Below, piece after piece: positions 2,605-39,634 of a stretch of DNA of 57,352 nt (its first letter is position 1; every line of letters starts with the position of its first letter). Made by a program: the position numbers and the translations under genes. This DNA comes from Odoribacter sp. (GTDB lineage: Bacteria > Bacteroidota > Bacteroidia > Bacteroidales > Prolixibacteraceae), in contig PNOH01000030.1 of assembly GCA_013824715.1 (NCBI GenBank), positions 1 through 57,352 on the forward strand, in the 5' to 3' direction. The notes beneath the pieces were generated by a model. That model did no database searches and was not told the origin of the DNA. It was given only the letters and a program-made list of their open reading frames with translations.

Positions 2605-2662
2605 GTTTCTATAGGTATTGACGAAATGTTTGTTAAAATTAGTGATTTGTAAAAATCATCCT

Positions 2663-4545: not shown

Positions 4546-4575
4546 TAAATTGTAAATCATTTAATCTTTTATTTT

Positions 4576-4752: not shown

Positions 4753-4771
4753 TCCTTCCTTAAAATGTTAG

Positions 4772-4807
4772 AAAAGGCCGCTGATTCTGTCGATCAATGG
4801 CCTTTTT
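4772..4807 (+). terminator. Rho-independent terminator after the 58-residue winged-helix gene
   Basis: AAAAGGCC and GGCCTTTTTG pair around a loop of about 18 bases, followed by a T-run. It starts 20 bases after the stop codon. Confidence 0.75.
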
Positions 4808-4915
4808 GTTTTCAGGCTATACATATTTTATAAGTTATAATTGAATTTTAAGGTGTTGTTTGTAGCTATCAGATTCAATAACTTCGCAAATCAAACCAAC
4901 CAAATTTACCCAGTC

Positions 4916-6277: not shown

Positions 6278-6362
6278 CAGGTGAGTTCAAATTTTGTTTT
6301 TATCCTCGTTTTAGCTAAGTTTGAATGACCTCACCCAATCTTATTATCAAAAATTGAATCCC

Positions 6363-7445: not shown

Positions 7446-7481
7446 GGTATATGAAAGTGCAATTAAATTAAACCAAAAGTC

Positions 7482-14670: not shown

Positions 14671-15669
14671 TCACAGCGATTTTCGGACAGTCAACTTTGA
14701 AGGGATAATCAGACTGGTCTTTTCTCCGGTAATAACAAATTCGGCGATCTTTTGTCCCATCAGTTCAAAGTCGGTTGAAATTACGGTAATCCCGTCTTTT
14801 ACATACTTTTTCATTGGTGTTTCGTTGTACGAAATCACACCAACATCATGTCCCGGAACTAATTTTTTCAGCTCGCATTGATCCAGAAATTTGGCCAATG
14901 TACGGTCGCTCACCAGCAAATACAGTTCGCCTTTCTGAATGTCGAATTTTTTGAAATCGTATAAAGTTCTAAAACTGATATGATGATCGGTGCAAAATTT
15001 CTCGAAATACGGTATGGAAACCTTTGGATGATAAGTAAACGATGGGTACAGGTAAATAAACTTGTCGTATTTGCGAATCAGTTCGATGCCACTTTCGAGC
15101 GAATCGTACAAAGCCTGCCCGAAATCCTGATGAATGGACGATGTTCCTTCTTGTGCATTCACATTCCAGTCGATCACCAGTAATTTATTGGCCGGAATCT
15201 GGCTGGTTATTTCAGGAACCCGTTCGTGATCGAAATTCATGATGATGTACTTCGTGTATTTTCCCAGGCTTTCTTTGATAATTTTCTCGAAATCGTCAAT
15301 GTTGTAATGGTGAAAATGAATGTCGATGGCAATCGTTTCAGGCAGATTATCCAGAAATGCACCATACAAAACCTCCTTATATGCTTTGAAAGTATCGAGA
15401 AACAGAAAAACTTTGGTTACCGCTTTGGCCACAAAATAGCCACGGTTAGGAACCGATTCAATCACGCCTCGATTTTTAAGTTCGGCATACGCTTTAAAAA
15501 CCGTATCGCGCGACAAGGAACTTTCCTTACACAACTGGTTCACCGAAGGTAACATATCGCCAACCTGAAGTAAATTCCGGCTGACTGCCTCGTTGACCGA
15601 ATCAATCAGTTGCTGGAATTTCAATAAATTCGATTGAGGATTAATTTCAAAATGAAACTTACTTTCCAT
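14671..15669 (-). CDS. GntR-family transcriptional regulator with sugar-binding-like domain, probable xylose regulator
   Basis: This 332-residue protein has an N-terminal GntR winged helix (about residues 15-80: LIDSVNEAVSRNLLQVGDMLPSVNQLC..., then LSRDTVFKAYAELKNRGVIESVPNRGYFV). The C-terminal domain of about 240 residues resembles periplasmic-binding/LacI-type ligand domains (KYIIMNFDHERVPE, LLVIDWNV, GHDVGVISYNETPM). GntR proteins of this architecture regulate sugar catabolism in Bacteroidota. It is transcribed toward xylB, and the same 15-base candidate operator lies at its own promoter and at the xylB promoter, so autoregulation and control of xylBAE are inferred. The ligand is presumably xylose or xylulose. 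Confidence 0.85.
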   Translation of the reverse strand: MESKFHFEINPQSNLLKFQQLIDSVNEAVSRNLLQVGDMLPSVNQLCKESSLSRDTVFKAYAELKNRGVIESVPNRGYFVAKAVTKVFLFLDTFKAYKEVLYGAFLDNLPETIAIDIHFHHYNIDDFEKIIKESLGKYTKYIIMNFDHERVPEITSQIPANKLLVIDWNVNAQEGTSSIHQDFGQALYDSLESGIELIRKYDKFIYLYPSFTYHPKVSIPYFEKFCTDHHISFRTLYDFKKFDIQKGELYLLVSDRTLAKFLDQCELKKLVPGHDVGVISYNETPMKKYVKDGITVISTDFELMGQKIAEFVITGEKTSLIIPSKLTVRKSL

Positions 15670-15689
15670 GCAATACTATTAATAAGTGG

Positions 15690-15734
15690 TCTGTTCTGGT
15701 ATGCAAACATACAAATTAGACAGGAAAAGGCAAA
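15690..15734 (-). promoter_or_regulatory. Promoter and candidate operator of the gntR gene
   Basis: On the minus strand, TTTG (15734-15731), 19 bases, then TATGTTTG (15711-15704) fit the Bacteroidota promoter consensus. The 15-base candidate operator TCTGTTCTGGTATGC occupies 15690-15704, touching the -7 element. The arrangement is nearly the same as at xylB. Confidence 0.65.
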
Positions 15735-15759
15735 GAGAAAAATGGAAAGGCTCAGGCGA

Positions 15760-15792
15760 AGTCCGAGCGCGACTTTGAGTCGCACCCGGACT
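15760..15792. repeat. REP palindrome, left border copy of the CRISPR-Cas island
   Basis: This 33-base imperfect palindrome begins AGTCCGAGCGCGACT and ends AGTCGCACCCGGACT, around a 3-base TTG loop. It is the exact reverse complement of the copy at 27738-27770, on the far side of the CRISPR array. Related copies surround and enter the RAYT gene at 22306-23031. Confidence 0.85.
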
Positions 15793-15899
15793 AGACTGTA
15801 CATATTTCTAATTATTTTCTGGTCAAATCGTTTATTTTCCGGTTTGCTTTTGTTAACTTGGATGAAATTTGAATTCACAAAAACCTGATTAATTATCCT

Positions 15900-16048
15900 A
15901 TGTATATTGGTCATATAAAAATCAATGATAGTGGTGATTTTGAACTTCAAGAGCTTGATGATCATTTAGAAGGAACCGCCCGATTGGCATTTTCTTTTGC
16001 ATCAGAGTTTCAAAATAAAGAGTGGAGAAGGCTGCTTGGTTTAGAAAA
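15900..16048 (+). pseudogene. Relic of a Cas3 N-terminal HD region
   Basis: A frame opening at ATG 15900 reads MYIGHIKINDSG, then LDDHLEGTARLAFSFASEFQ and EWRRLLGL. This closely follows the usual start of type I Cas3 HD nucleases (EHLxGxAxLAxxFAxxF...EWxxLAGLWHDxGKYS), but the similarity stops exactly where the catalytic HD should follow. The frame then runs on to 16142 in unrelated sequence, overlapping the start of the intact cas3 in another frame. The intact cas3 has its own different HD N-terminus. The relic is therefore best read as the leftover 5' end of an earlier cas3 that was replaced. It might still be translated as a short peptide. Confidence 0.6.
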
Positions 16049-16101
16049 AGTGATTGAAAAATGGGTGCATATTTTATTAATGAATAGAACTTTTACATCG
16101 T

Positions 16102-18564
16102 ATGAAACCAGTAGCGCACATTCGAAAACCAGATGGAATTAATTTAATCCAAAAGGAACAAACTTTAGATGAGCACTTAAAGAATGTCTCTTTCATTTCT
16201 GCATTAAATGCTTCCAAAATCGGTCTGACCAAAGCAGGCGAACTAATTGGTCAATTGCATGACTTCGGAAAATACAGCGATGTATTTCAGAATTACATTA
16301 GATCCGCTTCGGGGTTAATAAATCAAGACGAGGATGAATATGTTGATTCGCAAGGATTAAAAGGCAAGATTGATCACTCCACTGCCGGAGCCAAATACAT
16401 TTGGAATTTTGCTAAGGGTAAAAAGCTAAAGGAACAAATAGCAGCTCAGTTGTTGTCACTTTGTGTAGCTTCCCACCATTCTGGATTAATTGATTGTCTT
16501 ACCATTGATGGCGAAAATGACTTCACCAGACGAATGGGAAAAGCAGACAATAAAACACATTTGGTAGAAGCATTAAGTAAGGCAGAGCCTGAAATTATTG
16601 AAAAAGTTAAAATTTTACTGGACGACACGGAATGTTTCGGAGGAGTCCTGCAAGTATTGAAGAAGATTGCTCAGACTGAAAAGAATGAGACTATCATTCG
16701 TTTTCAGTCTGGTTTAATGATACGTATGCTATATAGTTGCCTGATAGATGCCGACAGGCTTGACACTGCAAATTTTGAAAATCCCAAATACGTCAAAAAA
16801 AGACAGAATGGGAAGTACATAAACTGGGAATTACTTATCGATAGGCTTGAAAAAAAACTGAAGGAATTTGAGGACAAACCCGGAAAAAACAAGGTTGATA
16901 TTCTTCGAAAATTAATATCAGATGCATGTTTTGAGCGGTCAGCGGACAATACAGGCATTTTTACACTTACAGTTCCAACAGGTGGAGGTAAGACACTTGC
17001 CAGTTTGCGGTTTGCGCTTCACCATGCAAAAAAACATATGCTCGACAGGATAATTTATGTTATTCCTTTTACATCTATCATTGACCAAAACGCACAAGTT
17101 GTCCGCGAAATTCTTGAAGTTGAGAAACATGAAGAAGGGCGAATTGTTTTGGAGCATCATTCGAACCTGATGCCTGAAATACAGAATTGGAAAAACAAAA
17201 TACTTACCGAAAACTGGGATGCCCCGATTATTTACACAACCAGTGTCCAATTGCTTGAAACACTATTTGGTGGAGGAACTCGCAGTGCCCGCCGAATGCA
17301 CCAATTAGCCAATTCGATAATTGTTTTTGATGAAATTCAGACCTTACCAATAAAAACGGTTCACATGTTTTGCAATGCCATAAACTACCTTACGCGGCAT
17401 TGCAATAGTAGCGTGGTTTTATGCACGGCAACCCAACCTTTATTGAATAAGGTTGACGAAAACAAAGGCAGGATAAACTTTGACAAATCAAATGAAATTA
17501 TGCCCGATATTGAAACTCTTTTTGCTGATTTAAAACGGGTTGAAGTCGAAAATAAGATCAAACCTCAGGGATGGGAAACCGATGAGATTGCCTCATTGTC
17601 TATTGAACAAACCAATGATAGCGGAAGCTGTCTGGTAATTGTCAACACAAAAAAAAATGCACAAGCAGTTTACGATGCCTGCTCAAAAATGACCGATTAT
17701 CCGGTTTACCATCTGAGTACAAGTATGTGTCCCGCACATCGAATGGAGAAACTTACTGAAATTAGGAAAAAATTAGGGAAAGAACCTTTGATTTGCGTTA
17801 GTACCCAACTTATTGAGGCTGGCGTTGATGTTGACTTTGGCTCGGTAATCCGTTTTGTTGCCGGGCTTGATTCGATTGCACAGGCAGCCGGAAGATGCAA
17901 CCGGAATGGTTTAAGAGATATCGGAAAGGTGTTTGTTATTAATCCAGCAAATGAAACTATTGATTCTCTTGAAGATATTAAAGTTGGGAAAGAAATTACA
18001 TCGGAAAGAATCCTTTATTATTTTAATCAAAAACTGAAAGATAACTCAGATGATTTACTTAGTCCGGAATGGATGAATCAATATTTTGAATACTATTTTT
18101 TTAGAAGGGCTAGCGAAATGAGTTATCCTGTTGAGGTAGGCCGAGATGATAGTTTACTGGAACTTTTAAGTACAAACGGGTTTTCAGTAGGGATTTACAA
18201 TAGGGTAAATTCGAAGCCCCTTGATATTTATTTTCGTCAATCATTTAAAACTGCTTCTGATGCTTTTAAAGCTATTGATGCCCCAACCCAAGGCATCGTG
18301 GTACCTTATTCCGATAAAGGAAAAAAAATAGTAGCCGATTTATTTTCAAAGTTTGCAGTAGAGCAACAGTTTAAATTGCTAAAAAAAGCACAGCGCTACA
18401 CAGTCAATGTATTTCCGAATTTTATTAAAAAACTCCAGGAAGAAAGGGCTATTCGGGAAGTCCCCGAAATAGGTGTGTTGGTGCTGATTGACCCTCGTTA
18501 TTACCATCCTGAATTTGGTTTAAGCACCGAAATAGTAAAAGAATATGATCCACTAATACAGTAA
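16102..18564 (+). CDS. cas3: CRISPR-associated helicase-nuclease Cas3 (type I-C)
   Basis: This 820-residue protein carries an N-terminal HD nuclease and an SF2 helicase. It is recruited to a target-bound Cascade and unwinds and degrades the DNA. HD-domain residues are visible: the first His in DEHLKN, the HD pair at residues 53-54 (LHDFGKYSD), DHSTAGAKY and SHHSGLID. Helicase motifs follow: Walker A TVPTGGGKT near 291, motif II FDEIQTLP near 410, CTATQP, and motif VI in AAGRCNRNG. The length is normal for a fused Cas3. It starts the cas operon, 4 bases before cas5c (stop at 18564, ATG at 18568). A relic of another Cas3 N-terminus lies just upstream. Confidence 0.95.
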   Translation: MKPVAHIRKPDGINLIQKEQTLDEHLKNVSFISALNASKIGLTKAGELIGQLHDFGKYSDVFQNYIRSASGLINQDEDEYVDSQGLKGKIDHSTAGAKYIWNFAKGKKLKEQIAAQLLSLCVASHHSGLIDCLTIDGENDFTRRMGKADNKTHLVEALSKAEPEIIEKVKILLDDTECFGGVLQVLKKIAQTEKNETIIRFQSGLMIRMLYSCLIDADRLDTANFENPKYVKKRQNGKYINWELLIDRLEKKLKEFEDKPGKNKVDILRKLISDACFERSADNTGIFTLTVPTGGGKTLASLRFALHHAKKHMLDRIIYVIPFTSIIDQNAQVVREILEVEKHEEGRIVLEHHSNLMPEIQNWKNKILTENWDAPIIYTTSVQLLETLFGGGTRSARRMHQLANSIIVFDEIQTLPIKTVHMFCNAINYLTRHCNSSVVLCTATQPLLNKVDENKGRINFDKSNEIMPDIETLFADLKRVEVENKIKPQGWETDEIASLSIEQTNDSGSCLVIVNTKKNAQAVYDACSKMTDYPVYHLSTSMCPAHRMEKLTEIRKKLGKEPLICVSTQLIEAGVDVDFGSVIRFVAGLDSIAQAAGRCNRNGLRDIGKVFVINPANETIDSLEDIKVGKEITSERILYYFNQKLKDNSDDLLSPEWMNQYFEYYFFRRASEMSYPVEVGRDDSLLELLSTNGFSVGIYNRVNSKPLDIYFRQSFKTASDAFKAIDAPTQGIVVPYSDKGKKIVADLFSKFAVEQQFKLLKKAQRYTVNVFPNFIKKLQEERAIREVPEIGVLVLIDPRYYHPEFGLSTEIVKEYDPLIQ

Positions 18565-18567
18565 AAT

Positions 18568-19314
18568 ATGGAAACACTCAAAAACAGTATTCAGTTTAAA
18601 GTTTGGGGACGGTATGCCCTTTTCACCGACCCTATTACCAAACTCGGAGGCGAACGATGTTCATACCACATTCCAACCTACGAAGCATTGAAAGGGGTTG
18701 CCAAATCAATTTATTGGAAGCCAACACTTATTTGGTATATCGACAAGGTGCGGATAATGAAAACTGTCCGCACACAAACCAAAGGAACTAAACCATTGAA
18801 AATGAGCGGAGGGAACGACTTGTCAATTTACACTTATCTTGTTGATATTGAATACCAGGTATTAGCGCATTTTGAATGGAATATACATCGTCCTGAATTG
18901 GCAAAAGACCGAATTGATGGAAAACACTTCCAAATTACTCAACGAATGCTCGAACGGGGAGGACGGCAGGATATTTTCCTTGGAACCCGGGACTGTCAGG
19001 GATATGTTGAACCCTGCAATTTTGGTGAAGGGATTGGCGCTTATGATGATATAGACGAACTTAGCTATGGCTTAATGTTTCATGGTTTTGATTATCCTGA
19101 TGAAACAGGCAAGGATGAAATGGTAACACGTTTTTGGCGGCCTGTGATGAAACATGGCATAATTGTTTTTGAGCATCCGGAACAATGTTCAGTACGGAAA
19201 TTCGTGAGGACAATGCAAGCTAAAACCTTTGATGAAGGACAGAATTTCAAGAATGTTGAAATAGAATTTGAAGAACTTATTCTTCAACCCGGCATGGAGG
19301 ACGGCAAAATATGA
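18568..19314 (+). CDS. cas5c: Cas5c (Cas5d), pre-crRNA endonuclease and Cascade subunit
   Basis: This 248-residue RAMP protein, in type I-C systems, replaces Cas6: it cuts the array transcript at the repeat and keeps the 5' handle of the crRNA. The N-terminal RAMP fold (FKVWGRYALFTDPITKLGGERCSYHIPTYEALKGVAKSIYW) carries the typical I-C stretch with a Tyr/Lys-rich putative active site, followed by the Gly-rich LGTRDCQGYVEPC. There is no cas6 in the locus, in keeping with this role. It overlaps cas8c by the 4 bases ATGA at 19311-19314. Confidence 0.95.
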   Translation: METLKNSIQFKVWGRYALFTDPITKLGGERCSYHIPTYEALKGVAKSIYWKPTLIWYIDKVRIMKTVRTQTKGTKPLKMSGGNDLSIYTYLVDIEYQVLAHFEWNIHRPELAKDRIDGKHFQITQRMLERGGRQDIFLGTRDCQGYVEPCNFGEGIGAYDDIDELSYGLMFHGFDYPDETGKDEMVTRFWRPVMKHGIIVFEHPEQCSVRKFVRTMQAKTFDEGQNFKNVEIEFEELILQPGMEDGKI

Positions 19315-21233
19315 GCTGGATTGAGGAACTATATAACACTTATGAGAATTGTTATGGACAAGAAGAAATACCTTCAATTGATGGGAAAAGGGCTAAGAAG
19401 CCACTATTACCTCTCTTTCATAAATTACAAAACTCGCATATTGAGATAAGAATTGATGGAGAAGGAAATTTTATTGATGCCAGTTTAATTGAAAGTAAAA
19501 ATGATCAGGAAATAATTATTCCGTGTACAGAGAAATCATCATCCAGAACAAGCGGGGAAGAACCCCATCCTCTTTGTGATAAAATTCAATATTGTGCTGA
19601 GGATTATACTGGCAATAAAAAATCATATTTTATCTCTTATAGCAGACAACTTGAAAAATGGGCTAATTCCGATTTTAGCCATCCTATGGTTAAGGTTATC
19701 AGCAAATATGCGAAAAAGGGAACTCTTTATACTGATATTATTGGAACAGGCAAACAATTCGGTAAACCCGGTGATGACTTAGCTGATTTACTCGTTCGTT
19801 GGAAGGTTGAAATATATGGCGAGAATGAAACAAGATGTTGGAAAAATAGAACACTCTTTAAAAGTTGGCAACTATTCTCAGAAAGTCAAGAATCTGTTGA
19901 AGATATTTGCATGGTAACCGGATACAAAAAGTCGATAGCATTAAATCATCCGAACCGGATAAGAAATAGTGGAGATAGTGCCAGACTAATTTCATCAAAT
20001 GATAAGTCTGGGTTTACTTTTTTGGGTAGGTTTAAATTGAATGACGTGATACTCAATGGTAAAAAAGAAGAGATTGCCGTTCAATCTGCTTCAATTAGTG
20101 TTGAAGTATCTCAAAAAGCCCATAGTGCCCTTCTATGGTTAATTGACAGACAAAGCTTTCGAAATGGTGATCAGGTAATAGTATCATGGGCTATATCCGG
20201 GCAAGAAACGCCAGATTTGTTAGCAGACAGCCTTTCCCTTTTTGATGAAACGGACGAAGAAAAGATAAACGAGGTAACCCAATTATCATACACTGATGCA
20301 GGGCAGACATTTGCCCGAAAACTTACCAAAAAGATAGCCGGATATAAAGCTGAACTAAAAGATGCTACAAAAATAGTTGTAATGGGTCTTGATTCGGCTG
20401 GCCCTGGAAGGCTGTCTATTATTTATTATCGGGAGCTTTCTAATTCTGAGTTTTTGGAAAGAATCGAAAAATGGCACGCTCAAATGGCTTGGTTTTTTTT
20501 AGAGTTTTTCCAGGACACTACTGATAAAAAGAAAAAGCACTCAGGATATATGGTGATTGCCCCAGCTCCCCGAACTATTGCCGAAGCATGTTACGGGAAA
20601 CGGCTTGATGATAAATTAAAAAAATCTACAGTCGAAAGACTTTTACCATGTATTGTCGATGGTAGGCAAGTTCCAATAGATTTGGTCGATTCTGCTGTTA
20701 AACGGGCATCAAACAAAATTGGCATGGAACATTGGGAATGGGAACGAACACTAAGTGTTGCATGTGCTCTTTATCGCTGTCATTCAATAAGAAATTCAAA
20801 TAATTTAACTAAAAAAGAATACACTATGGCTTTAGAAACCGAACGCACCGACAGAGATTACCTGTATGGTCGCCTGCTTGCCGTGGCAGAACACATTGAA
20901 GAAGCGGCACTGCATATTGCAAAAGAAAATAGAGATACTATGGCATCCCGACTTATGCAGCGTTTTGCAGATTATCCATATTCAACATGGAGAAATATTG
21001 AGCTTTCACTTAAACCTTATGAGTCAAGGATTCTTGCAAAATGGCCAGGTTTCTTGATGAATAAACGACGATTAATTGATGAAATTCATACAAAATTTGA
21101 AACCGGCGAATACGAGAAAGATACTCGATTGTCAGGAGCTTACTTGCTAGGTTATCATTGTCAGCGTCTTGACCTCTCACCAAAAAAATCAAACAACGAA
21201 TTAGAAATGGAAACTGAAAACAACAATTTATAA
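19311..21233 (+). CDS. cas8c: Cas8c, large subunit of the type I-C Cascade
   Basis: This 640-residue Csd1-family protein recognises the PAM and anchors target binding. It is recognisable by position between cas5c and cas7c, by length and by family segments such as NHPNRIRNSGDSARLISSNDKSGFTFLGRF, SVEVSQKAHSALLWLIDRQ and VIAPAPRTIAEACYGK. The C-terminal 135 residues (from Met506, MALETERTDRDYLYGRLLAV) have the composition of the small subunit Cas11c, which in type I-C is translated from an internal start. The gap to cas7c is 12 bases. Confidence 0.93.
   Translation: MSWIEELYNTYENCYGQEEIPSIDGKRAKKPLLPLFHKLQNSHIEIRIDGEGNFIDASLIESKNDQEIIIPCTEKSSSRTSGEEPHPLCDKIQYCAEDYTGNKKSYFISYSRQLEKWANSDFSHPMVKVISKYAKKGTLYTDIIGTGKQFGKPGDDLADLLVRWKVEIYGENETRCWKNRTLFKSWQLFSESQESVEDICMVTGYKKSIALNHPNRIRNSGDSARLISSNDKSGFTFLGRFKLNDVILNGKKEEIAVQSASISVEVSQKAHSALLWLIDRQSFRNGDQVIVSWAISGQETPDLLADSLSLFDETDEEKINEVTQLSYTDAGQTFARKLTKKIAGYKAELKDATKIVVMGLDSAGPGRLSIIYYRELSNSEFLERIEKWHAQMAWFFLEFFQDTTDKKKKHSGYMVIAPAPRTIAEACYGKRLDDKLKKSTVERLLPCIVDGRQVPIDLVDSAVKRASNKIGMEHWEWERTLSVACALYRCHSIRNSNNLTKKEYTMALETERTDRDYLYGRLLAVAEHIEEAALHIAKENRDTMASRLMQRFADYPYSTWRNIELSLKPYESRILAKWPGFLMNKRRLIDEIHTKFETGEYEKDTRLSGAYLLGYHCQRLDLSPKKSNNELEMETENNNL
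20826..21233 (+). CDS. cas11c: Cas11c small subunit from an internal start inside cas8c (predicted)
   Basis: An in-frame ATG at 20826 would give 135 residues that begin MALETERTDRDYLYGRLLAV and form an all-helical protein (HIEEAALHIAKE, RLMQRFADYPYSTWRNI, FLMNKRRLIDEI). Independent translation of Cas11c from the 3' end of cas8c is established for type I-C Cascades, and the RDYLYGRLLA segment is where it starts in related systems. Upstream there is only a weak purine stretch (AAAAAAGAA) as ribosome site, as is common in Bacteroidota. It would fill the belly of Cascade. The exact start codon is inferred. Confidence 0.65.
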   Translation: MALETERTDRDYLYGRLLAVAEHIEEAALHIAKENRDTMASRLMQRFADYPYSTWRNIELSLKPYESRILAKWPGFLMNKRRLIDEIHTKFETGEYEKDTRLSGAYLLGYHCQRLDLSPKKSNNELEMETENNNL

Positions 21234-21245
21234 ATTTTAATAATT

Positions 21246-22115
21246 ATGACAACTTTAGAAAACAAAATTGATTTTGCAGTGATAATCCGTGCTACAAAAG
21301 CCAATCCTAACGGCGATCCTTTAAATGGTAACCGACCACGAATGGATTATGACGGATTTGGTGAAATTAGCGATGTATGTATTAAAAGGAAAATACGTGA
21401 TCGCTTGATGGAAGCCAAGGATGAACAGGGTAATTATAAACACTCTGTTTTTGTACAATGCGATGAAAGAAAAGTTGACGATGCAAAAAGTTTAAAGGAC
21501 AGGGCAGACAAAGCATTAAAGGACAAGTTGACATTAGAAACTGCTTGTAAACAATGGTTTGACGTTAGGGCATTTGGTCAAGTGTTTGCTTTTAAATCAG
21601 CAAATTCAAAAAAGAAAAAAGGTGAAGAAACGAGTGAGGAAGGTGGCGATACTGGCATTTCAATTCCTGTTAGAGGTCCTGTAACTGTTCACTCTGCATT
21701 TAGTATAGAACCGATAAGACCTGAGAGCATTCAGATTACTAAGAGTGTTAACAGTGAAACAACCTCCGATGGCAAGAAGAGTTCGGACACTATGGGGATG
21801 AAACATCGCATTGACAAAGGTGTTTATGTCTTTTATGGAAGTATTAATCCTCAACTGGCCGAAAGAACAGGTTTCAGTAATGAGGATGCAGAAGTAATAA
21901 AATCAATATTGCCCAAATTGTTCGAAAACGATGAATCATCTGCACGTCCTGCCGGAAGTATGGAAGTGGTTAAAGTTATTTGGTGGAACCACGGCTGCAA
22001 AGCAGGAAAATTTTCATCAGCAAAAGTACACCAAAGCTTGAAAGTAAACCCTGATGGTTCCTACTCTATATCAGATTTAAAGGATTTGAAACCGGAACCA
22101 ATTGATGGATTTTAG
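21246..22115 (+). CDS. cas7c: Cas7c, backbone subunit of the type I-C Cascade
   Basis: This 289-residue Csd2/Cas7-family RAMP protein forms the helical filament along the crRNA. Family marks are visible at the N-terminus (IDFAVIIRATKANPNGDPLNGNRPRMD, then ISDVCIKRKIRDRL), in the middle (WFDVRAFGQVFAF and ISIPVRGPVTVHSAFSIEPI) and in MGMKHRIDKGVYVFYGSI. It is the last effector gene; the adaptation genes follow only after a REP cluster and the transposase gene. Confidence 0.95.
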   Translation: MTTLENKIDFAVIIRATKANPNGDPLNGNRPRMDYDGFGEISDVCIKRKIRDRLMEAKDEQGNYKHSVFVQCDERKVDDAKSLKDRADKALKDKLTLETACKQWFDVRAFGQVFAFKSANSKKKKGEETSEEGGDTGISIPVRGPVTVHSAFSIEPIRPESIQITKSVNSETTSDGKKSSDTMGMKHRIDKGVYVFYGSINPQLAERTGFSNEDAEVIKSILPKLFENDESSARPAGSMEVVKVIWWNHGCKAGKFSSAKVHQSLKVNPDGSYSISDLKDLKPEPIDGF

Positions 22116-22135
22116 AATTTTTTTAGTGCGGTAGC

Positions 22136-22276
22136 TTTATTCCGGGTGCGACTCTAAGTCGCGCTCGGAATAATTACTAGCTATAGTAATTCCGGAACCG
22201 TTACCAAGTCGCGGTCGTATTACCAATCACGTTACTGCCATTCCGGGCCCAACTCCAAGTCTGACCCGGAATAATT
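22136..22276. repeat. Cluster of three REP palindromes between cas7c and the RAYT gene
   Basis: Copies lie at 22137-22173 (TTATTCCGGGTGCGACTC, then the matching arm), at about 22189-22220 (degenerate: TTCCGGAACC... AAGTCGCGGTC) and at 22240-22274 (ATTCCGGGCCCAACTC, then the matching arm). They are variants of the palindrome at 15760 and 27738. Such clusters beside a RAYT gene are the expected REPtron layout. Confidence 0.8.
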
Positions 22277-22305
22277 AGAGAAATTATAACTACAAATTGC
22301 ACCTT

Positions 22306-23031
22306 ATGCAATTCGATTCAGGTCATTTGTATCACATCTATAATCAAGGTAATAACCGGCAGAAGATATTTCTTGACCGGGAGAATTATCTCTTTTTCCT
22401 TCGAAAAATCCACAAGCATGTAATACCATTTGCTGATATTCTGGCATGGTGTTTAATGCCCAACCACTTTCATCTGATGGTGCATGTTAACCAGGTTGAG
22501 ATTGACGAACGAACCTTTACTCCGAGCGCGACTCAAAGTCGCACCCGGAGTAAGTTGGAAGTAATTCCGAACCCGACTTTTATTCCGAGTCCGACTCTAA
22601 GTCGGGCCCGGAATAAAATGAGTTTCAACAAGTCTATTGGCATTATGCTGGCCTCATACACCCGTGCTGTTAATAAGCAACAGAATTGGAGCGGATCGAT
22701 TTTTCGCTCCGAAACGAAAGCTGTTTGCCTGACTGAAATTGATGGAATATCGCCCGGTTGGATTACAAACATAGGAATTACGGAATTTACTGACAATGAT
22801 CCCGACATTCAATATCCGAATGTATGCTTTAACTATATCCATAATAATCCGGTGAAAGATGGATTAGTTAACAGCCCGGAAGATTGGGAGTTTTCTTCCT
22901 ATTCCGATTTTATTGGAATCAGAAAAGGAAATCTGATAAACAGGAAAAGAATTCAGGAATTTGGGCTTTGTTTGAACAAGTCCGAGTGCGACTTTGAGTC
23001 GCGCCCGGACTATAAAAACCAATCAAAATGA
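22306..23031 (+). CDS. REP-associated tyrosine transposase (RAYT, Y1_Tnp family) inside the cas operon
   Basis: This Y1 HUH transposase-like protein of about 241 residues has the family start HLYHIYNQGNNRQKIFLDREN, the HUH motif MPNHFHLMVHV near residue 60, and the catalytic Tyr in MLASYTRAVNKQ, followed by IFRSETKAVCLTEI and CFNYIHNNPVKDGLV. RAYTs cut and join single-stranded REP hairpins. All the catalytic residues are present. Two and a half REP palindromes (22519-22551, 22564-22579 half, 22582-22614) are inserted in frame between the HUH and Tyr regions and encode the repeated peptide PSxTxSRxRxK. A third REP (22979-23011) encodes most of the C-terminus. ATG 22306 is preferred over an in-frame TTG at 22297. 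The stop overlaps the cas4 start (ATGA). Confidence 0.88.
   Translation: MQFDSGHLYHIYNQGNNRQKIFLDRENYLFFLRKIHKHVIPFADILAWCLMPNHFHLMVHVNQVEIDERTFTPSATQSRTRSKLEVIPNPTFIPSPTLSRARNKMSFNKSIGIMLASYTRAVNKQQNWSGSIFRSETKAVCLTEIDGISPGWITNIGITEFTDNDPDIQYPNVCFNYIHNNPVKDGLVNSPEDWEFSSYSDFIGIRKGNLINRKRIQEFGLCLNKSECDFESRPDYKNQSK
22519..22614. repeat. REP palindromes inserted in frame within the RAYT coding sequence
   Basis: Full copies occupy 22519-22551 (starts ACTCCGAGCGCGACTC) and 22582-22614 (starts ATTCCGAGTCCGACTC), with a half copy ATTCCGAACCCGACTT at 22564-22579. Both full copies are read in the same frame (TPSATQSRTRSK and IPSPTLSRARNK), so the open frame is kept. Confidence 0.85.
22979..23011. repeat. 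REP palindrome at the 3' end of the RAYT gene
   Basis: AGTCCGAGTGCGACTT and the matching arm ending CGCCCGGACT form one 33-base REP. It is read in another frame than the internal copies (KSECDFESRPD) and ends 17 bases before the cas4 start codon. Confidence 0.85.
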
Positions 23032-23723
23032 ATCAAACACTATACTCCGACGACGATCTTTTAATGCTCTCGGGCATTCAGCATTTTGCTTTTTGTGAGC
23101 GGCAATGGGCTCTGATCCATATCGAACAACAATGGGCCGAAAATATGCGCACGGTTGAAGGAAACCACATGCACGAGCGGGTTGACGATCCTTTTGCAAG
23201 CGAAGTTCGTGGGAGTGTTATCACACTGCGTTCTGTTTCAATGGTTTCGAACCGCTTAGGATTGTATGGCGTAGCCGATGTGGTAGAGTTTAATCGGTCT
23301 GAAAGAGGCGAAGGGGTTGCAATGGAAGGCTATCCGGGCAAATGGCAACCCGTACCTGTTGAATACAAACGGGGAAAGCCCAAACCTGACGAACGCGACG
23401 AGGTTCAACTTTGTGCCCAGGCCATTTGCCTTGAAGAAATGTACAATTCTAAAAATGATTTCAATCTGATTTTAAACACTGGTTATTTGTTTTATGGAGA
23501 AACCCGTCATCGCCATGAAGTAATTTTCAGTCAGGAACTGAGAAATAAGGTTGAAAACTATGCAAAACGGATGCACGAACTTTTTGAAAATGGGATTACC
23601 CCTTTGGCCGTTTATAAAACGCATTGCAAAGCTTGTTCGCTGGTCGAACTCTGTAATCCAAAGGCTTTTTGTAACCCTCGCAAGGTAAACGATTATTTGA
23701 AAAATGTACTTGAAACCGACTGA
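23028..23723 (+). CDS. cas4: Cas4 exonuclease of the adaptation module
   Basis: This 231-residue RecB-like nuclease with an iron-sulfur cluster trims prespacers and sets their PAM and orientation together with Cas1-Cas2. Visible are the first cluster Cys (HFAFCERQWALIHIE), the His of the nuclease core (NHMHERVDDPF), the QxxxY-like KRGKPKPDERDEVQLCAQAICLEE and the C-terminal Cys triplet (HCKACSLVELCNPKAFC). The start overlaps the RAYT stop by the sequence ATGA, so cas4 is now translationally coupled to the transposase gene instead of to cas7c. Confidence 0.94.
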   Translation: MNQTLYSDDDLLMLSGIQHFAFCERQWALIHIEQQWAENMRTVEGNHMHERVDDPFASEVRGSVITLRSVSMVSNRLGLYGVADVVEFNRSERGEGVAMEGYPGKWQPVPVEYKRGKPKPDERDEVQLCAQAICLEEMYNSKNDFNLILNTGYLFYGETRHRHEVIFSQELRNKVENYAKRMHELFENGITPLAVYKTHCKACSLVELCNPKAFCNPRKVNDYLKNVLETD

Positions 23724-23727
23724 TTCA

Positions 23728-24759
23728 ATGAGAAAACTTTTAAATACACTGTATGTGACAACTCCGGAATCGTATCTGGCGAAAGATGGTGAAAATGTGG
23801 TGATTCGGCTTGACGACAAAGAAAAATTCCGGATGCCCATCCACAATATCGAAGGAATTGTTTGTTTTGGATATATGGGGGCAAGTCCGGGTTTAATGCA
23901 TTTGTGCGCCGAACGTAATGTGGCGCTTAGCTTCCTGACCGAGCATGGCCGGTTTTTATGCAGGGTTGAGGGGGCTGTTTCAGGAAATGTTTTGTTGAGG
24001 CGCAAACAATACCGGATGGCCGACAATGAAGAACAATCAGTTAGTCTGGCAAAGCTGTTCGTTGCCGGTAAACTTGCCAATTGCCGAACAGTCTTGCAGC
24101 GTTCATTTCGGGAACAAAATCCCGGGAAAAACCTGCCTGAACTGGAATCAGCCATTCATTTACTTGCATTGAAGCAAAAGCAGGTCCTGCGAACATCTTC
24201 GGCTGATGTTTTACGTGGTGTTGAAGGCGAAGCAGCACAAGGCTATTTCGGAGTATTTGATCAATTGATTCTTGCTCAGAAGGAAGATTTTTTCATGAAC
24301 GGACGAAACCGGCGACCTCCAAAAGACAACGTCAATGCACTGCTCTCCTTTGTTTATACCCTTTTAATGCACGAAGTACGGGCCGCATTGGAAAGTGTTG
24401 GCCTCGATCCTTGCGTTGGGTTTTTCCATACCGACCGCCCCGGTCGTTCAAGCCTGGCACTCGATATGATGGAAGAATTCCGTCCTTACCTGGCCGACAG
24501 GCTCGTATTATCATTAATCAACCGGAAGCAGGTAAACAAGCGTGGTTTTAAAGGAAATGAGGCGGGTGGCATCCTGATGACTGACGATACACGCAAAGAG
24601 GTAATAACCGCATGGCAGAAACGGAAACAGGAAGAAATACAACATCCGTATTTACAAACCTCTATTCCGGTTGGGTTATTGCCTTATGCACAAGCTTTGC
24701 TGATGGCGCGGTTTATAAGAGGAGACATCGATAATTATCCGGTTTTTGTAAACAAATAG
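23728..24759 (+). CDS. cas1: Cas1 spacer-acquisition integrase (type I-C)
   Basis: This 343-residue integrase subunit inserts spacers at the leader end together with Cas2. It begins MRKLLNTLYVTTPESYLAKDG as in I-C Cas1, then has the N-terminal beta domain (IHNIEGIVCFGYMGASPGLM). The metal-binding acidic/His residues lie in the helical domain: Glu in VEGEAAQGYFGVFDQLI, His in VGFFHTDRPGRSSLALDMMEEFRP and the following Asp/Glu. A start at ATG 23704 would add eight residues and overlap cas4 by 20 bases; ATG 23728 gives the usual I-C length and a 4-base gap. Confidence 0.96.
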   Translation: MRKLLNTLYVTTPESYLAKDGENVVIRLDDKEKFRMPIHNIEGIVCFGYMGASPGLMHLCAERNVALSFLTEHGRFLCRVEGAVSGNVLLRRKQYRMADNEEQSVSLAKLFVAGKLANCRTVLQRSFREQNPGKNLPELESAIHLLALKQKQVLRTSSADVLRGVEGEAAQGYFGVFDQLILAQKEDFFMNGRNRRPPKDNVNALLSFVYTLLMHEVRAALESVGLDPCVGFFHTDRPGRSSLALDMMEEFRPYLADRLVLSLINRKQVNKRGFKGNEAGGILMTDDTRKEVITAWQKRKQEEIQHPYLQTSIPVGLLPYAQALLMARFIRGDIDNYPVFVNK

Positions 24760-24773
24760 ATCATTCGAAGCTT

Positions 24774-25064
24774 ATGATGGTACTAATAACATACGATGTG
24801 GAGACAATAACTCCGGCAGGTCGCAAAAGACTGAGGCAGATTGCCAAACAATGTGTTAACTTTGGCCAGCGGGTACAAAATTCAGTATTTGAATGTTTAA
24901 TAGATCCTGCCATATTCACTGAATTGCGGTTTAAACTTGAATCAATTATTGATCCTGAGGCAGACAGTTTAAGGTATTACTTTTTGGGCAACAATTATAA
25001 AAACAGGATAGAGCATGTGGGCCATAAAGAAACCTACGATCCGGAAGGAACCCTAATCATTTAG
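24774..25064 (+). CDS. cas2: Cas2 (type I-C)
   Basis: This 96-residue ferredoxin-fold protein dimerises as the scaffold of the Cas1-Cas2 integrase. It reads MMVLITYDVETITPAGRKRLRQIAKQC with the conserved Asp after the first strand, then GQRVQNSVFECLIDPA and DSLRYYFLGNNYKNRIEHVG. The length and the C-terminal tail are those of I-C Cas2. It starts 14 bases after cas1 and is the last cas gene before the leader. Confidence 0.96.
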   Translation: MMVLITYDVETITPAGRKRLRQIAKQCVNFGQRVQNSVFECLIDPAIFTELRFKLESIIDPEADSLRYYFLGNNYKNRIEHVGHKETYDPEGTLII

Positions 25065-25233
25065 TTCCGCGTACCATAAGCTCTCATGAGAATGCAGGGA
25101 GATCGGCGAATACTGAAAATAAAGGATTTAGAACATATTAACTGAATATTTAGGATTTATCTTGAATTGTATTTGAAGGATCGCGGATTAGGCTTTGTAT
25201 CTAACTGAAAAACAATACTTCATATACTATACA
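25065..25233 (+). promoter_or_regulatory. CRISPR leader
   Basis: These 169 bases between cas2 and the first repeat form the leader. The array reads 5'-GTCGC...ATTGAAAC-3' on the plus strand, so transcription and new spacer insertion should start here. A possible promoter is TTG (25167-25169), 19 bases, then TAGGCTTTG (25189-25197), which is one base longer than the consensus. It would start the transcript about 30 bases before the first repeat. Confidence 0.6.
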
Positions 25234-27724
25234 GTCGCGCCTCGCAAGGGGCGCGTGGATTGAAACTGCCAGAACGAAAGCTGGGATAGCTGATTAAAGG
25301 TCGCGCCTCGCAAGGGGCGCGTGGATTGAAACGATGACATTTGATGCAGAAGGGATGCGGGTTATAGTCGCGCCTCGCAAGGGGCGCGTGGATTGAAACT
25401 CACTTGGACTACTTTTACGATACCTGACAAAATGTCGCGCCTCGCAAGGGGCGCGTGGATTGAAACTGGCAGAAAAAAGGATATATCAAAGCTCACAAAG
25501 TCGCGCCTCGCAAGGGGCGCGTGGATTGAAACATAATAAACGGTAAAAGATTGTGAAGCGGTGTAGGTCGCGCCTCGCAAGGGGCGCGTGGATTGAAACT
25601 CACTTGGACTACTTTTACGATACCTGACAAAATGTCGCGCCTCGCAAGGGGCGCGTGGATTGAAACTGGCTAAATCCCTGAAAACTTCTGTAGGCAAATC
25701 AGGTCGCGCCTCGCAAGGGGCGCGTGGATTGAAACAAACACAATTAAATGCTAAGGCTGCATTGAATGGTCGCGCCTCGCAAGGGGCGCGTGGATTGAAA
25801 CGTTTGTCGGTATCCACCCCGATTCTGAATTGTAAAGTCGCGCCTCGCAAGGGGCGCGTGGATTGAAACCGTCCTCTTTACAGAACCATGCGTAATGGTT
25901 TGGTCGCGCCTCGCAAGGGGCGCGTGGATTGAAACGTAATGTTGTCTAAAAACCACAAATCGAAACCTGTCGCGCCTCGCAAGGGGCGCGTGGATTGAAA
26001 CAGTTTTTTTACAACCGAATCGGCAAACTCAATAGTCGCGCCTCGCAAGGGGCGCGTGGATTGAAACCATCATTGCAAACCATTTGGCACAGGTAGTAGG
26101 TCGCGCCTCGCAAGGGGCGCGTGGATTGAAACTTTTTGAAGAGTGCCTTTAATTTTTGAACCTAGTCGCGCCTCGCAAGGGGCGCGTGGATTGAAACCCA
26201 TCCGCTCGAGTGTCCGGCAAAATACCGTTGTCGCGCCTCGCAAGGGGCGCGTGGATTGAAACGTGCTGGGTAATGGTTGTTTCGGGGGGCAAAAGGTCGC
26301 GCCTCGCAAGGGGCGCGTGGATTGAAACCGGCGATAAACCAGCCAATGATATTATAGGTTGGGTCGCGCCTCGCAAGGGGCGCGTGGATTGAAACATGAT
26401 ATTTTGTTTTTGTTTGTTTGACCTGTACAAGTCGCGCCTCGCAAGGGGCGCGTGGATTGAAACTTTGCTCCTGAATAGTTAAGCCAACCCGGGGCAGTCG
26501 CGCCTCGCAAGGGGCGCGTGGATTGAAACCCGAATAGGATCAACAATTGCTTTATCTAAAGTTGTCGCGCCTCGCAAGGGGCGCGTGGATTGAAACCGGG
26601 CAATGGTCGCCCACGAGTGCCGCGCCCAATGTCGCGCCTCGCAAGGGGCGCGTGGATTGAAACGGGCCAAACCGGCAATGTACTAAGGAGAGACAAGTCG
26701 CGCCTCGCAAGGGGCGCGTGGATTGAAACCCGATAACTGGGGTGAAATATCGGCCAAACACCTGTCGCGCCTCGCAAGGGGCGCGTGGATTGAAACCTCC
26801 GGAACCGGTTTGCGAACTAATGGCACGGGTCGCGCCTCGCAAGGGGCGCGTGGATTGAAACGCCCCCGTAACCCGTAACCCGAAACACGCAACCCGTCGC
26901 GCCTCGCAAGGGGCGCGTGGATTGAAACAAGGCAATGGGGTTAAATAGTAAATCGTAAATAAGTCGCGCCTCGCAAGGGGCGCGTGGATTGAAACATCAA
27001 ACAGCGGCATTAATGCTTTAACCGGCAAGTCGCGCCTCGCAAGGGGCGCGTGGATTGAAACATTGTGCAGACATCAAGCTTTAAATTGGTGAAAGTCGCG
27101 CCTCGCAAGGGGCGCGTGGATTGAAACATTTAGTGGTTTAACAAGAAAACCTAGATACAAGGTCGCGCCTCGCAAGGGGCGCGTGGATTGAAACTTTCTG
27201 TTTCTAAAGTGCGGATAACTAACTAAAGGTCGCGCCTCGCAAGGGGCGCGTGGATTGAAACCCAACTGAAGCAAGCGCAAGCCTATACACCAGGGTCGCG
27301 CCTCGCAAGGGGCGCGTGGATTGAAACCCATAATGGCGGTCACTCCTGCGGCTTGTGATTGTCGCGCCTCGCAAGGGGCGCGTGGATTGAAACAATAAGC
27401 AAACAGGTAATATTGTTGGCGGTCATGTCGCGCCTCGCAAGGGGCGCGTGGATTGAAACTTCATAAATATTATTTTTTAGTTATTTGACACTGTCGCGCC
27501 TCGCAAGGGGCGCGTGGATTGAAACAGACAGAAGGTTGAAACAAAACATTAAGCTGCTGTCGCGCCTCGCAAGGGGCGCGTGGATTGAAACCTGTCAGCT
27601 AAGATTTACAAGCGATAAGATGAAGTCGCGCCTCGCAAGGGGCGCGTGGATTGAAACTGTGTTGGGTGTATTTTACCCTTGTAATCTCCTTGTCGCGCCT
27701 CGCAAGGGGCGCGTGGATTGAAAC
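25234..27724 (+). CRISPR. Type I-C CRISPR array, 38 repeats and 37 spacers
   Basis: The repeat is 33 bases, GTCGCGCCTCGCAAG then GGGCGCGTGGATTGAAAC. It has a CGCGCC/GGCGCG hairpin stem and the ATTGAAAC end typical of type I-C. All 38 copies that I read are identical, including the leader-distal one (27692-27724). Spacers are 32-36 bases (period 65-69). Spacer 3 (25400-25433) and spacer 6 (25600-25633) are identical; the remainder look distinct. The apparent long protein frames across this region are translations of the repeat (RAPCEAR, SRLARGAWIET) and are not genes. Confidence 0.98.
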
Positions 27725-27737
27725 CGGTGGTGCAATT

Positions 27738-27770
27738 AGTCCGGGTGCGACTCAAAGTCGCGCTCGGACT
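27738..27770. repeat. REP palindrome, right border copy of the CRISPR-Cas island
   Basis: This 33-base copy begins AGTCCGGGTGCGACTC and ends GTCGCGCTCGGACT. It is the exact reverse complement of the copy at 15760-15792 and starts 13 bases after the last CRISPR repeat. Confidence 0.85.
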
Positions 27771-27881: not shown

Positions 27882-29609
27882 ATGAAAAAACTTTCCCTTT
27901 TCCTTTTTACCTTTTATCTTGCTGTTCAGGCTTTTCCGCAGAAATACGTAAAAGTATGGGGCGATGAGTTTAACACTCCCGGCCTGCCCGACAGTACCAA
28001 ATGGGACTATGAAATGGGCAAAGTGCGCAACGATGAACTTCAGTATTACACCTTTAAACGCTCGGAGAATGCACGTATTCAGGATACCGTTCTGATTATT
28101 GAGACCCGGAAAGAAGCCTATAAGGGCGCCAGCTATACTTCGGCAAGTTTGATATCAAGGTACAAAGGCGACTGGCTTTACGGAAAGTTCGAGATTCGGG
28201 CCAAAGTTCCGACAGGAAAAGGCACCTGGCCTGCAATCTGGATGATGCCTACTGATGATGAATATGGCGGCTGGCCAAAAAGTGGCGAAATAGATATCAT
28301 GGAATATGTAGGCATGAATCCGTCGAACCTGTATTTTACAGCCCATTTTGGATCAGATTCGGGTGCTGGCCATAAAAGCTCCGGGAATTATACAACAGCA
28401 ATTAGTCAACCATACAACAAGTTTATCACTTTCAGCCTGATTTGGACACCCACCAAAATGGAATGGTTTGCCGATGGGGTAAAATATCACACTTACACAA
28501 AAACATCTGACGATCCGAAAGTTTGGCCGTTCAATAAAATGTTCTATTTCATCCTGAATCTGGCCTATGGCGGAAGTTGGGGCGCCCAGCAGGGAATAGA
28601 CGATACGAAACTTCCGCATAAATTCTTTATTGATTACGTTCGGGTGTATCAGTTACAGGAATCTGCCGGTCCGTTTTCATTGAAAATAGAACCTGCTACT
28701 GGTGGTACGGTTGAAATCTCGCCACAACTATCCGTTTATCCTGAAGGAACCAAGGTAACCCTCACCGCCAAGCCTGATGCGAATTTCGAATTCGATAAAT
28801 GGCTGCATACAGGTTCGGCCAACCCGATTCAAATAGAAGTTTCGAAAGACCTGAACATGACTCCGGTTTTCAAAAAAAAAAATGAACTGATTGTAAATGG
28901 CGATTTCAGTTTGGGAATAAAATACTGGGGCAATTTTTATTTTTACAGTGCACAACAGAAAGCCACTGCATCGGTAATTGATGGAGTTTATGTTGTTAAT
29001 GTTACCAGTCCGGGAACCGCCAACTGGCACATTGTTGATCAGTATTTAAATATTCCGCTGGTACAGGGAACAACCTACAAAATAAGCTTTGATGCCTGGT
29101 CCGAAAACCCAAATCAAATGGATGTTTTTCTGGCTGAAAACCATGACAATTATGTGACCTATTATTCTACGATCAAAAACATTTCCAATACCAGACAGAG
29201 TTATACCTGGACCGTTACCATGAGCAAAGCCAGTGATCCCAATTGCCGCTTTGGCTTTGGATTTGGGCGTTTTACCGGAAAAGTATTTCTGGATAATGTA
29301 AGCATCGAAAAAGTAACTGCTACCAATGCTGTAATCTGGCCTGAAAAGTCGGCCGATATACAAATTTTCCCCAATCCAAATTCCGGTATATTTGAAATGA
29401 TCAGTCATTCGTCAAAAGGATTACCCGCAACCGTTAAACTGTATAATCTTCAGGGTCAGTTAATCTCGACTTTATTACAAAAAAGAGTACTTCCATCTGG
29501 TCAATCGGTTTATTTTAACCTTGATGACCTTAAGCTTGACAAGGGAATCTATTTCTTAGCTGTTTCAACTTTGGAAAGCTCAACAACCCAAAAAATTGTT
29601 ATAAACTAA
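27882..29609 (+). CDS. Secreted GH16 beta-glucanase (laminarinase-like) with carbohydrate-binding module and T9SS tail
   Basis: This 575-residue protein has a signal peptide (MKKLSLFLFTFYLAVQAFPQ). The GH16 domain (about residues 24-260) shows VWGDEFNTPGLPDSTKW, the glucan-binding GTWPAIWMMP and the catalytic GEIDIMEYVG near residue 140, with a nucleophile and an acid/base Glu. There follow an InlB-repeat-like beta domain (GGTVEISPQLSVYPEGTKVTLTAKP), a CBM4/9-like beta sandwich (NELIVNGDFSLGIKYWGNF) and a type IX sorting domain (IFPNPNSGIFEM to the end). Such enzymes cut beta-1,3/1,4-glucans outside the cell. It is the first gene past the CRISPR island. Confidence 0.9.
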   Translation: MKKLSLFLFTFYLAVQAFPQKYVKVWGDEFNTPGLPDSTKWDYEMGKVRNDELQYYTFKRSENARIQDTVLIIETRKEAYKGASYTSASLISRYKGDWLYGKFEIRAKVPTGKGTWPAIWMMPTDDEYGGWPKSGEIDIMEYVGMNPSNLYFTAHFGSDSGAGHKSSGNYTTAISQPYNKFITFSLIWTPTKMEWFADGVKYHTYTKTSDDPKVWPFNKMFYFILNLAYGGSWGAQQGIDDTKLPHKFFIDYVRVYQLQESAGPFSLKIEPATGGTVEISPQLSVYPEGTKVTLTAKPDANFEFDKWLHTGSANPIQIEVSKDLNMTPVFKKKNELIVNGDFSLGIKYWGNFYFYSAQQKATASVIDGVYVVNVTSPGTANWHIVDQYLNIPLVQGTTYKISFDAWSENPNQMDVFLAENHDNYVTYYSTIKNISNTRQSYTWTVTMSKASDPNCRFGFGFGRFTGKVFLDNVSIEKVTATNAVIWPEKSADIQIFPNPNSGIFEMISHSSKGLPATVKLYNLQGQLISTLLQKRVLPSGQSVYFNLDDLKLDKGIYFLAVSTLESSTTQKIVIN

Positions 29610-39628: not shown

Positions 39629-39634
39629 TAGTCT

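Follow-up and report, generated by a model that had tools for sequence, protein, structure and literature searches.

A REP-associated transposase gene at the effector–adaptation joint of a type I-C CRISPR-Cas locus whose effector cassette appears to have been replaced in situ

Here we have analysed a type I-C island of CRISPR-Cas genes (clustered regularly interspaced short palindromic repeats and their associated genes) in a 57,352-nucleotide stretch of contig PNOH01000030.1 from Odoribacter sp., hereafter the window. Our comparisons reveal a gene for a REP-associated tyrosine transposase (RAYT) at the joint between the effector and the adaptation genes, repetitive extragenic palindromes (REPs) at this joint, inside the RAYT gene and at both outer ends of the island, and an effector cassette that appears to have been replaced in situ. 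We propose, with a probability of about 0.58, that the locus consists of two modules joined by a REPtron (the RAYT with its REPs), that its effector genes were replaced in place, and that the outer REPs are local copies.

An effector cassette apparently replaced in place

The genome of the window (G000) comprises 4,602,615 bp in 85 contigs; the other G-numbers denote relatives, and nearly all the genomes compared are draft or metagenome-assembled. The type I-C effector sets are labelled A (window), B (G004 and G019) and C (G005). The island runs in the order cas3, cas5c, cas8c, cas7, RAYT, cas4, cas1, cas2 and an array of 38 repeats, all on the + strand. The A-type cassette consists of cas3 (16102–18564; HD and helicase; TIGR01587 and TIGR01596), cas5c (18568–19314; TIGR01876), cas8c/csd1 (19311–21233; TIGR01863) and cas7/csd2 (21246–22115; TIGR02589), which closes it. 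Beyond the joint lie cas4 (23028–23723; PF01930), cas1 (23704–24759; PF01867), cas2 (24774–25064; PF09827) and the array detected by the repeat search (25234–27725; repeat GTCGCGCCTCGCAAGGGGCGCGTGGATTGAAAC), whose repeat we take to be of I-C style. The type I-C markers TIGR01876, TIGR01863, TIGR02589 and TIGR01587 and the Pfam families of cas4, cas1 and cas2 all scored above cut-off.

The initial annotation had placed the whole locus, its array and the RAYT gene between the island's ends, and nothing else; this gene content was correct, but a cas3 remnant at about 15900–16047 had been missed. This scar (15900–16047, +), which is followed by the present A-type cas3, corresponds to approximately the first 48 codons of a C-type cas3: it shares 64.6% amino acid identity over 48 residues with the cas3 of G005, is unlike the cas3 downstream, and its region aligns at 73% with G005 at the nucleotide level (15501–16025). 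The C-type stub therefore points to the identity of the replaced cassette.

Twenty-three genomes of the genus were searched for cas1 and for the GntR-type regulator gene that forms the left flank in the window (14671–15669, −). All 23 carry the regulator, with a match of at least 79%, and four (G000, G004, G005 and G019) have a cas1 of the window's kind. In the sister genome G004, the GntR gene and the family-16-like glycoside hydrolase (GH16-like) gene that is the right flank in the window (27882–29609, +) enclose 8.6 kb that start and end with REPs; the names GH16, nitroreductase, GH92, gltA and hicBA used here were assigned by eye. The G004 cas4–cas1–cas2 genes show 85% nucleotide identity to the window and are accompanied by an array of three repeats; its cas3–cas5–cas8–cas7 set has no nucleotide match to that of the window, is still type I-C by the family models, and is about 20–33% identical to it in local alignments (24–39% between the G000 and G004 effector proteins). 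No RAYT is present at the G004 locus. A third effector set is found in G005, with cas3 on contig C16 behind a REP beside the GntR gene, and the remaining genes on contig C56, followed by the array, a REP and a nitroreductase gene. Between G000 and G004, differences at fourfold sites amount to 0.39–0.47 for cas4, cas1 and cas2, as against 0.19–0.46 for three host genes. As the adaptation genes diverge about like host genes and the effectors are unrelated in nucleotide sequence, both the site and the adaptation module appear to have been inherited, whereas the effector set was exchanged in place after G000 and G004 split. What has demonstrably moved is therefore the effector cassette and not the whole island.

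Effectors of the same type were closer to each other than the neighbouring adaptation genes in three of four cross-genome pairs, with differences of 0.38–0.51 versus 0.55–0.67 (G000–G117), 0.48–0.56 versus 0.63–0.73 (G005–G067) and, in a smaller contrast, 0.37–0.44 versus 0.48–0.56 (G004–G019). The boundaries of homology were also examined. The window's homology to G005 and G019 begins at a REP (22136–22137) right behind cas7; that to G117 is 79% across the RAYT and drops to 66% from the REP at 22981; and the B cassette common to G004 and G019 (4121–9892 of G004) begins 17 bp past the left REP and stops where the joint REP ends. Three of the four cassette edges examined thus lie on or within ~20 bp of REPs, a coincidence that is suggestive and not decisive, since the same places are the widest gaps.

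The joint RAYT and the REP family

The RAYT gene occupies the effector–adaptation joint (22297–23031, +, with a likely start at 22306) and overlaps cas4 by 4 bp. Its frame scores below the curated cut-offs (53.7 versus 80 bits for NF047646; 17.1 versus 23 bits for PF01797), probably as a consequence of two in-frame REPs that split the match. Across 15 aligned RAYT rows, the HUH motif (MPNHFH) and the S and Y of SYTRA are invariant, as are the N and P of a C-terminal motif that reads NPVKDG in the window protein; an NP(L/V)(R/K)xG motif near the C-terminus is given as a RAYT mark in the consulted part of PMC2817692. The best match of the AlphaFold model (mean predicted local distance difference test score, 75.7) is the REP-bound RAYT structure 4er8 (E 1.4e-6), and in the model residues 73–100, which are encoded by REP sequence, form a loop of low confidence that connects the HUH strand with the tyrosine helix. 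The product is thus predicted to combine the HUH motif, the catalytic tyrosine and the Y1 fold by which a RAYT, or TnpA-REP, is recognized.

The REPs at the two ends, 15760–15793 (+) and 27737–27770 (−), the latter ~12 bp past the last array repeat, are 34-nt inverted copies with 100% complementarity in an inverted-repeat search, which bears out and extends to 34 nt the exact inverted pair of the initial annotation. Its two-ended picture was right as to both ends but incomplete, since further REPs lie at the joint, in the RAYT frame and after the RAYT. These are a copy 21 bp past cas7 (22137–22173, −), where the homology to G005 and G019 begins; two degenerate copies without assigned strand (22187–22226 and 22238–22277; 65% and 75% to the reference copy); the two in-frame copies (22517–22553, within the loop, and 22580–22616, from the pattern search; both +); and a copy at the RAYT end (22977–23013, +), where the identity to G117 falls. 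The island thus holds six good and two degenerate copies.

A REP search pattern allowing up to three mismatches, applied to the window and the whole genome, gave six matches in the window, every one within the island (mean 0.00 in 100 shuffles), in agreement with the earlier statement that no REP lies in the window beyond it. Genome-wide there are nine copies, the other three being at C2:40372, C34:34786 and C68:8904. An even scatter of REPs through the genome, named beforehand as the finding that would make the flanking copies unremarkable, is excluded because at least six of nine copies in these 12 kb would occur under uniform scatter with p = 2.6e-14. None of the nine has the canonical GT[AG]G foot, and two carry a distant one, at −10 and −13. 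A palindrome in the cas9–RAYT gap of Perlabentimonas gracilis (L221:9885-9917) is identical to the G000 REP at C34:34784-34816 (33/33).

The REP is a near-palindrome, and the end copies match each other at 26/33 positions in direct orientation as well, which leaves the label "inverted" with little force. Exact inverted identity was rejected as proof of paired ends, because the copies at 22981 and C68:8904 are equally identical (33/33); in G005, too, the end pair is equalled in likeness by a second pair of REPs.

REPs could also be passengers or regulatory hairpins that take no part in rearrangement, those behind cas7 and behind the array perhaps serving as terminators or RNA stabilisers. The island has only four non-coding gaps of any size, at the left end, the joint, the leader and the right end; REPs occupy three of them, and with so few gaps any local spread would be expected to leave REPs at both ends. 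Moreover, between G000 and G004 the end REPs (30/34 and 29/34) are only somewhat better kept than their flanks (60/82 and 69/88), and the right REP of G019 runs into a T tract. Against this stand the position of three of the four swapped-cassette edges, a junction with a single REP in G019 (see below), and the REPs at the tight cas4–cas1 junction of G005 and G019, because of which REPs are not limited to wide gaps. We regard a passenger role as quite possible, although we lean towards the two-module locus with effector replacement in place.

Island ends and empty sites

G004 keeps both end REPs at orthologous places. In G005, the island ends are 44-bp direct repeats (1 mismatch) that contain the REP. 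The corresponding GntR site of G019 has the GntR gene, one REP lying in a counterpart of the 44-bp sequence, and the nitroreductase gene, and no CRISPR; an empty junction with a single REP, as had been predicted, is therefore seen in one genome, upstream of GntR. The CRISPR locus of G019 lies elsewhere, between gltA-like and GH92-like genes; it has a B cassette and carries a REP on its array side, but none was found at its cas3 end. At this second site, G018 and G017 are empty, with no REP in the stretches shown, and G008 retains a REP, part of the last repeat, the very start of cas4 and a hicBA-like pair, a remnant that, by eye, reads as a probable internal deletion. In G004 and G019, too, a hicBA-like toxin–antitoxin pair or its remnants lie between the RAYT region and cas4; the positions of the hicBA-like genes, the pair beside the deletion scar of G008 included, are L066:9893-10263, L119 ~8430-8800 and L197 ~3100-3550.

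The G005 repeats and the single related copy in G019 would be accounted for if homologous recombination between REPs brought in and removed the island as a whole. A fragment, circular or linear, with the locus and one REP would recombine with a chromosomal REP upstream of the GntR gene, so that both ends came to carry a REP, and the reversal would leave one REP. Few pairs match as closely as the end REPs do, at 33/33 in G000 and 32/33 in G005, in each case tied with one other pair, and the island is present at the GntR spot in two clades. However, five empty sites had no REP in the stretches fetched, two with the GntR gene followed by the GH16-like gene (G007 and G013) and three with GntR beside or near the nitroreductase gene (G011, G017 and G008); the adaptation module diverges about like host genes, which argues for an old vertical inheritance and not for a recent delivery; the G019 locus lacks a left REP; and the loss at the second site of G008 looks internal. 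Such recombination of the whole island is in our view rather unlikely.

The initial annotation had seen a unit bounded by REPs, delivered by REP-mediated recombination or mobile through the RAYT, a reading that our comparisons bear out only in part. End REPs do exist in G000, G004 and G005, but they fail at the left end in G019 and around the loci of G067 and G063, and delivery or mobility, which gains from the single-REP junction of G019, has to face the five REP-free empty sites and an end orientation that is not conserved. The two end REPs match best in direct orientation in G004 (29/33, versus 27/33 inverted) and match directly in G005 (32/33), so on the genomes compared the exact inverted pairing is not a conserved property; conserved transposon ends were not found, the ends being inverted in G000, direct in G005 and without the left REP in G019. 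A RAYT that recognises the end REPs and carries the 12-kb island as cargo would be consistent with its catalytic motifs, with purifying selection on the gene (dN/dS, the ratio of nonsynonymous to synonymous changes, of 0.11–0.38 over nine pairs), and with the presence of one REP family both at the ends and around the gene. Nothing shows the RAYT moving 12 kb, however. Like loci lack a REP at one or both ends, the G019 island at the other site has a B cassette and no left REP, and related RAYTs (G019:C81 and G018:C1046) have many REPs and no cas match nearby; moreover, the known enzyme works on single-stranded REP hairpins, with a dissemination route described as unknown in the part of PMC8266576 consulted. 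A RAYT that moves the island was rejected as the main reading because of the REP-free empty sites, the unconserved end orientation and the loci with missing end REPs, and we consider such mobility very improbable.

RAYTs at the joint of other CRISPR loci

Two samples, which overlap in loci and are not independent, were used to look for other joint RAYTs. In the RAYT-anchored sample, a RAYT alignment was searched against GTDB contigs and the best 80 of 495 confirmed relatives were read. Among these 80, 24 lie at a CRISPR module joint (three in type I-C loci and 21 before a type II cas1, with cas9 detected on the fetched stretch in 19 of the 21), one (L294) lies near a cas9 locus but off the joint, and for 55 no cas gene was seen nearby. 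P. gracilis and Alkaliflexus imshenetskii have the order cas9–RAYT–cas1–cas2–array, the latter with an extra gene before cas1.

In the cas1-anchored sample, P. gracilis cas1 was compared with 393 genomes of the order (Bacteroidales), giving 146 matches in 141 genomes; ranks 1–20 and 31–110 were read with long stretches (100 loci), ranks 21–30 with 1.5-kb flanks only (10 loci), and the weakest 36 were left out. A RAYT was found in 31 of the 100 loci, all 31 upstream of cas1 and on the same strand, at 0–200 bp with one exception (782 bp), and spanning 23 family codes; a rescan with a second profile recovered the same 31. In the first reading any frame longer than 600 amino acids was counted as cas9, and the homology was checked later: it was present ahead of the RAYT in 30 of the 31 (split into short frames in L385), the remaining stretch having 48 bp upstream. 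With the one RAYT of the same arrangement among ranks 21–30 (1/10), the type II-C loci of the order that were read carry a RAYT in 32 of 110 cases, always (32/32) upstream of cas1 and on the cas1 strand. In other orders of the phylum the figure was 3/57, two of the 57 having less than 500 bp upstream. A simple motif check recognised both catalytic motifs in 26 of the 33 frames of joint RAYTs. RAYTs at the joint fall into two groups with a median identity of 28%, a division to which a long-branch warning applies. A single origin of the II-C association was not supported: 14 label changes were counted on a tree of 83 rows, many of whose branches are weak.

G000 itself carries another CRISPR locus, which its cas1 identifies as type II (L395, G000:C12:19400-27000), with a distant, group-B RAYT at the cas9–cas1 joint; in its own orientation it comprises a cas9-length frame (947–5344), the RAYT (5355–6056) and cas1 (6056–6943).

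REP-like hairpins were found in or beside the RAYT at 26 of 31 RAYT joints; joints lacking a RAYT had them in 5 of 65 cases, and random cas9 windows in 2 of 91. REP-like stretches were also seen inside type II cas1 (L221:10685-11617 in P. gracilis, L275:2557 and L285:5696); by eye, the P. gracilis cas1 frame remains open through its stretch (TSPGETLSRTRTD). Ten wide RAYT-less cas9–cas1 gaps gave no RAYT even at E 10, and contained other frames or nothing; since such gaps sometimes hold other cargo, the joint seems to accept insertions generally. By eye, the gaps of L332, L347, L352, L391, L417, L423 and L424 contain ATPase-like, BRO-like and nucleotidyltransferase-like frames.

The constant position raises another candidate role: the joint RAYT could be a functional component of spacer acquisition, acting as an HUH single-strand nuclease that supplies or trims DNA ends for Cas1–Cas2. 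Its placement before cas1, with both genes on one strand, in 32/32 RAYT-positive II-C loci and before cas4 in type I-C, with the 4-bp overlap in the window, the two RAYT lineages at the same place and the dN/dS values all agree with it. On the other hand, 78 of 110 II-C loci have no RAYT, nor does G004, the 55 of the best 80 RAYT relatives without a cas gene in sight seem to do without one, and there is no co-evolution with cas1; we judge this role quite unlikely. The broader idea that the RAYT is an unrecognised CRISPR-Cas accessory of Bacteroidales, in type I-C and II-C, acting as a hinge at the seam or as a feeder of DNA ends to Cas1–Cas2, is likewise unlikely, if a little less so.

Several results weigh against the account that we favour. 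The window's own swap has its left edge within the old cas3, ~230 bp away from the REP. For the fourth cross-genome pair, G004–G063, cas7 (the contig holds cas7 only) is 73% identical in amino acids versus 77–93% for the adaptation genes. Loci without RAYT or REP exchange modules too, as in G067 (no REP in the 30 kb fetched around the locus) and G063 (no REP in its 3.5-kb contig). The G005 locus was read across two contigs (C16 with the cas3 part, C56 with the rest) and taken as one. In type II-C, P. gracilis and Bacteroidales UBA5349 have an identical 46-nt repeat consensus, 73% identity in cas1 and 24% in cas9, a pattern that reads as a likely in-place swap of cas9; but when exchange was defined as cas1 identity of at least 68% with cas9 identity below 35% or aligned over less than half, among 25 RAYT-positive and 65 RAYT-negative loci with both genes long enough, it occurred in 16/23 RAYT-positive and 110/168 RAYT-negative pairs (Fisher p 0.82). 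Because exchange is equally common without a RAYT, neither RAYT nor REPs are necessary for swapping, and REPs as its necessary cause were not upheld; this independence also favours REPs being passengers. Finally, the identity of RAYTs correlated neither with that of cas1 (rho 0.03) nor with that of cas9 (rho 0.06), so that co-inheritance with either was rejected (300 pairs, 25 loci). The missing correlation fits repeated settling and weakens a functional partnership.

Elsewhere in the window and in the array we noticed two further repeats. In the array, a repeat–spacer–repeat unit is duplicated with 100% identity 200 bp apart (25367–25470 and 25567–25670), and at 39634–39729 there are three tandem 32-bp units (TAATCCCAAATTCAAGTC...), a distinct small repeat.

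Discussion

We propose that the locus is made of an effector cassette (cas3–cas5–cas8–cas7) and an adaptation module with its array, which would be linked by a REPtron. A C-type cassette, of which the cas3 scar remains, was replaced by the A-type cassette, the sister genome carrying the B type, while the adaptation module and the site were kept. The outer REPs may be local copies spread by the RAYT into the island's few non-coding gaps, and the 12-kb island would not have been transposed by it. Exchange, and occasional clean loss, would be the work of ordinary recombination, with crossover homology available from REPs, from the RAYT gene and from the flanks held in common. In type II-C loci, at least two RAYT lineages appear to have settled repeatedly at the same joint, probably because insertions are tolerated in this co-oriented gap and the operon around it itself passes from genome to genome. 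We regard the joint as a recurrent landing place for RAYTs, and RAYT and REPs may assist swapping without being required for it.

Effector swapping around a fixed adaptation module was already known; in the open-access literature we found nothing on what occupies the seam, and no report of a RAYT at CRISPR joints. Here a seam with a transposase-derived gene and palindromes is seen in two CRISPR types. Annotation may overlook such genes, because the three joint RAYTs scored against NCBIfam fall below the family cut-off. The joint is also a recurrent genomic address for RAYTs, whose benefit to the cell is unsettled, and it can now be tested whether a tamed transposase lineage survives inside immune loci, helps to shuffle them, or joins spacer uptake.

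The window locus has the gene order of type I-C systems, cas3–cas5c–cas8c–cas7–cas4–cas1–cas2, and differs from them by the RAYT between cas7 and cas4. Similarly, RAYT-bearing II-C loci of Bacteroidota have the cas9, cas1, cas2 and array of this type; in Riemerella II-C the cas9–cas1 gap is only 12 bp, according to the part of PMC5006608 consulted. They differ in having the RAYT before cas1, in 32/110 loci of the order and 3/57 of other orders. CRISPR-associated Tn7-like transposons, which are transposons that use CRISPR for targeting, also unite a transposase and CRISPR genes in one locus; by contrast, in the window an immune locus with adaptation genes carries a Y1 RAYT, with no transposon ends shown.

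Among REPtrons, or TnpA-REP systems, the closest is subclass 2.4 of Quentin et al. 2018 (PMC6006769, as far as consulted), which shares the HUH and tyrosine motifs and NP(V)(K)xG, a placement made by shared marks, without a tree including the sequences of that study. In the consulted part of that paper, REPs inside the gene are what marks subclass 2.4, which is described as abundant in Cyanobacteria and Bacteroidetes; the word CRISPR does not occur in its main text. The likeness includes the palindromes around and inside the gene and the fold of 4er8, but the window RAYT lies inside a CRISPR-Cas operon, at the effector–adaptation joint, and its palindromes have no canonical GTRG foot. Exchange of effector modules in situ in CRISPR-cas loci has already been described (Koonin and Makarova 2019, PMC6452270, in the part consulted), and as in those cases the adaptation module and the array were apparently kept here while the effector genes were replaced. 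What sets the present locus apart is the transposase and REP block at the joint, the REPs at the outer ends and the cas3 scar.

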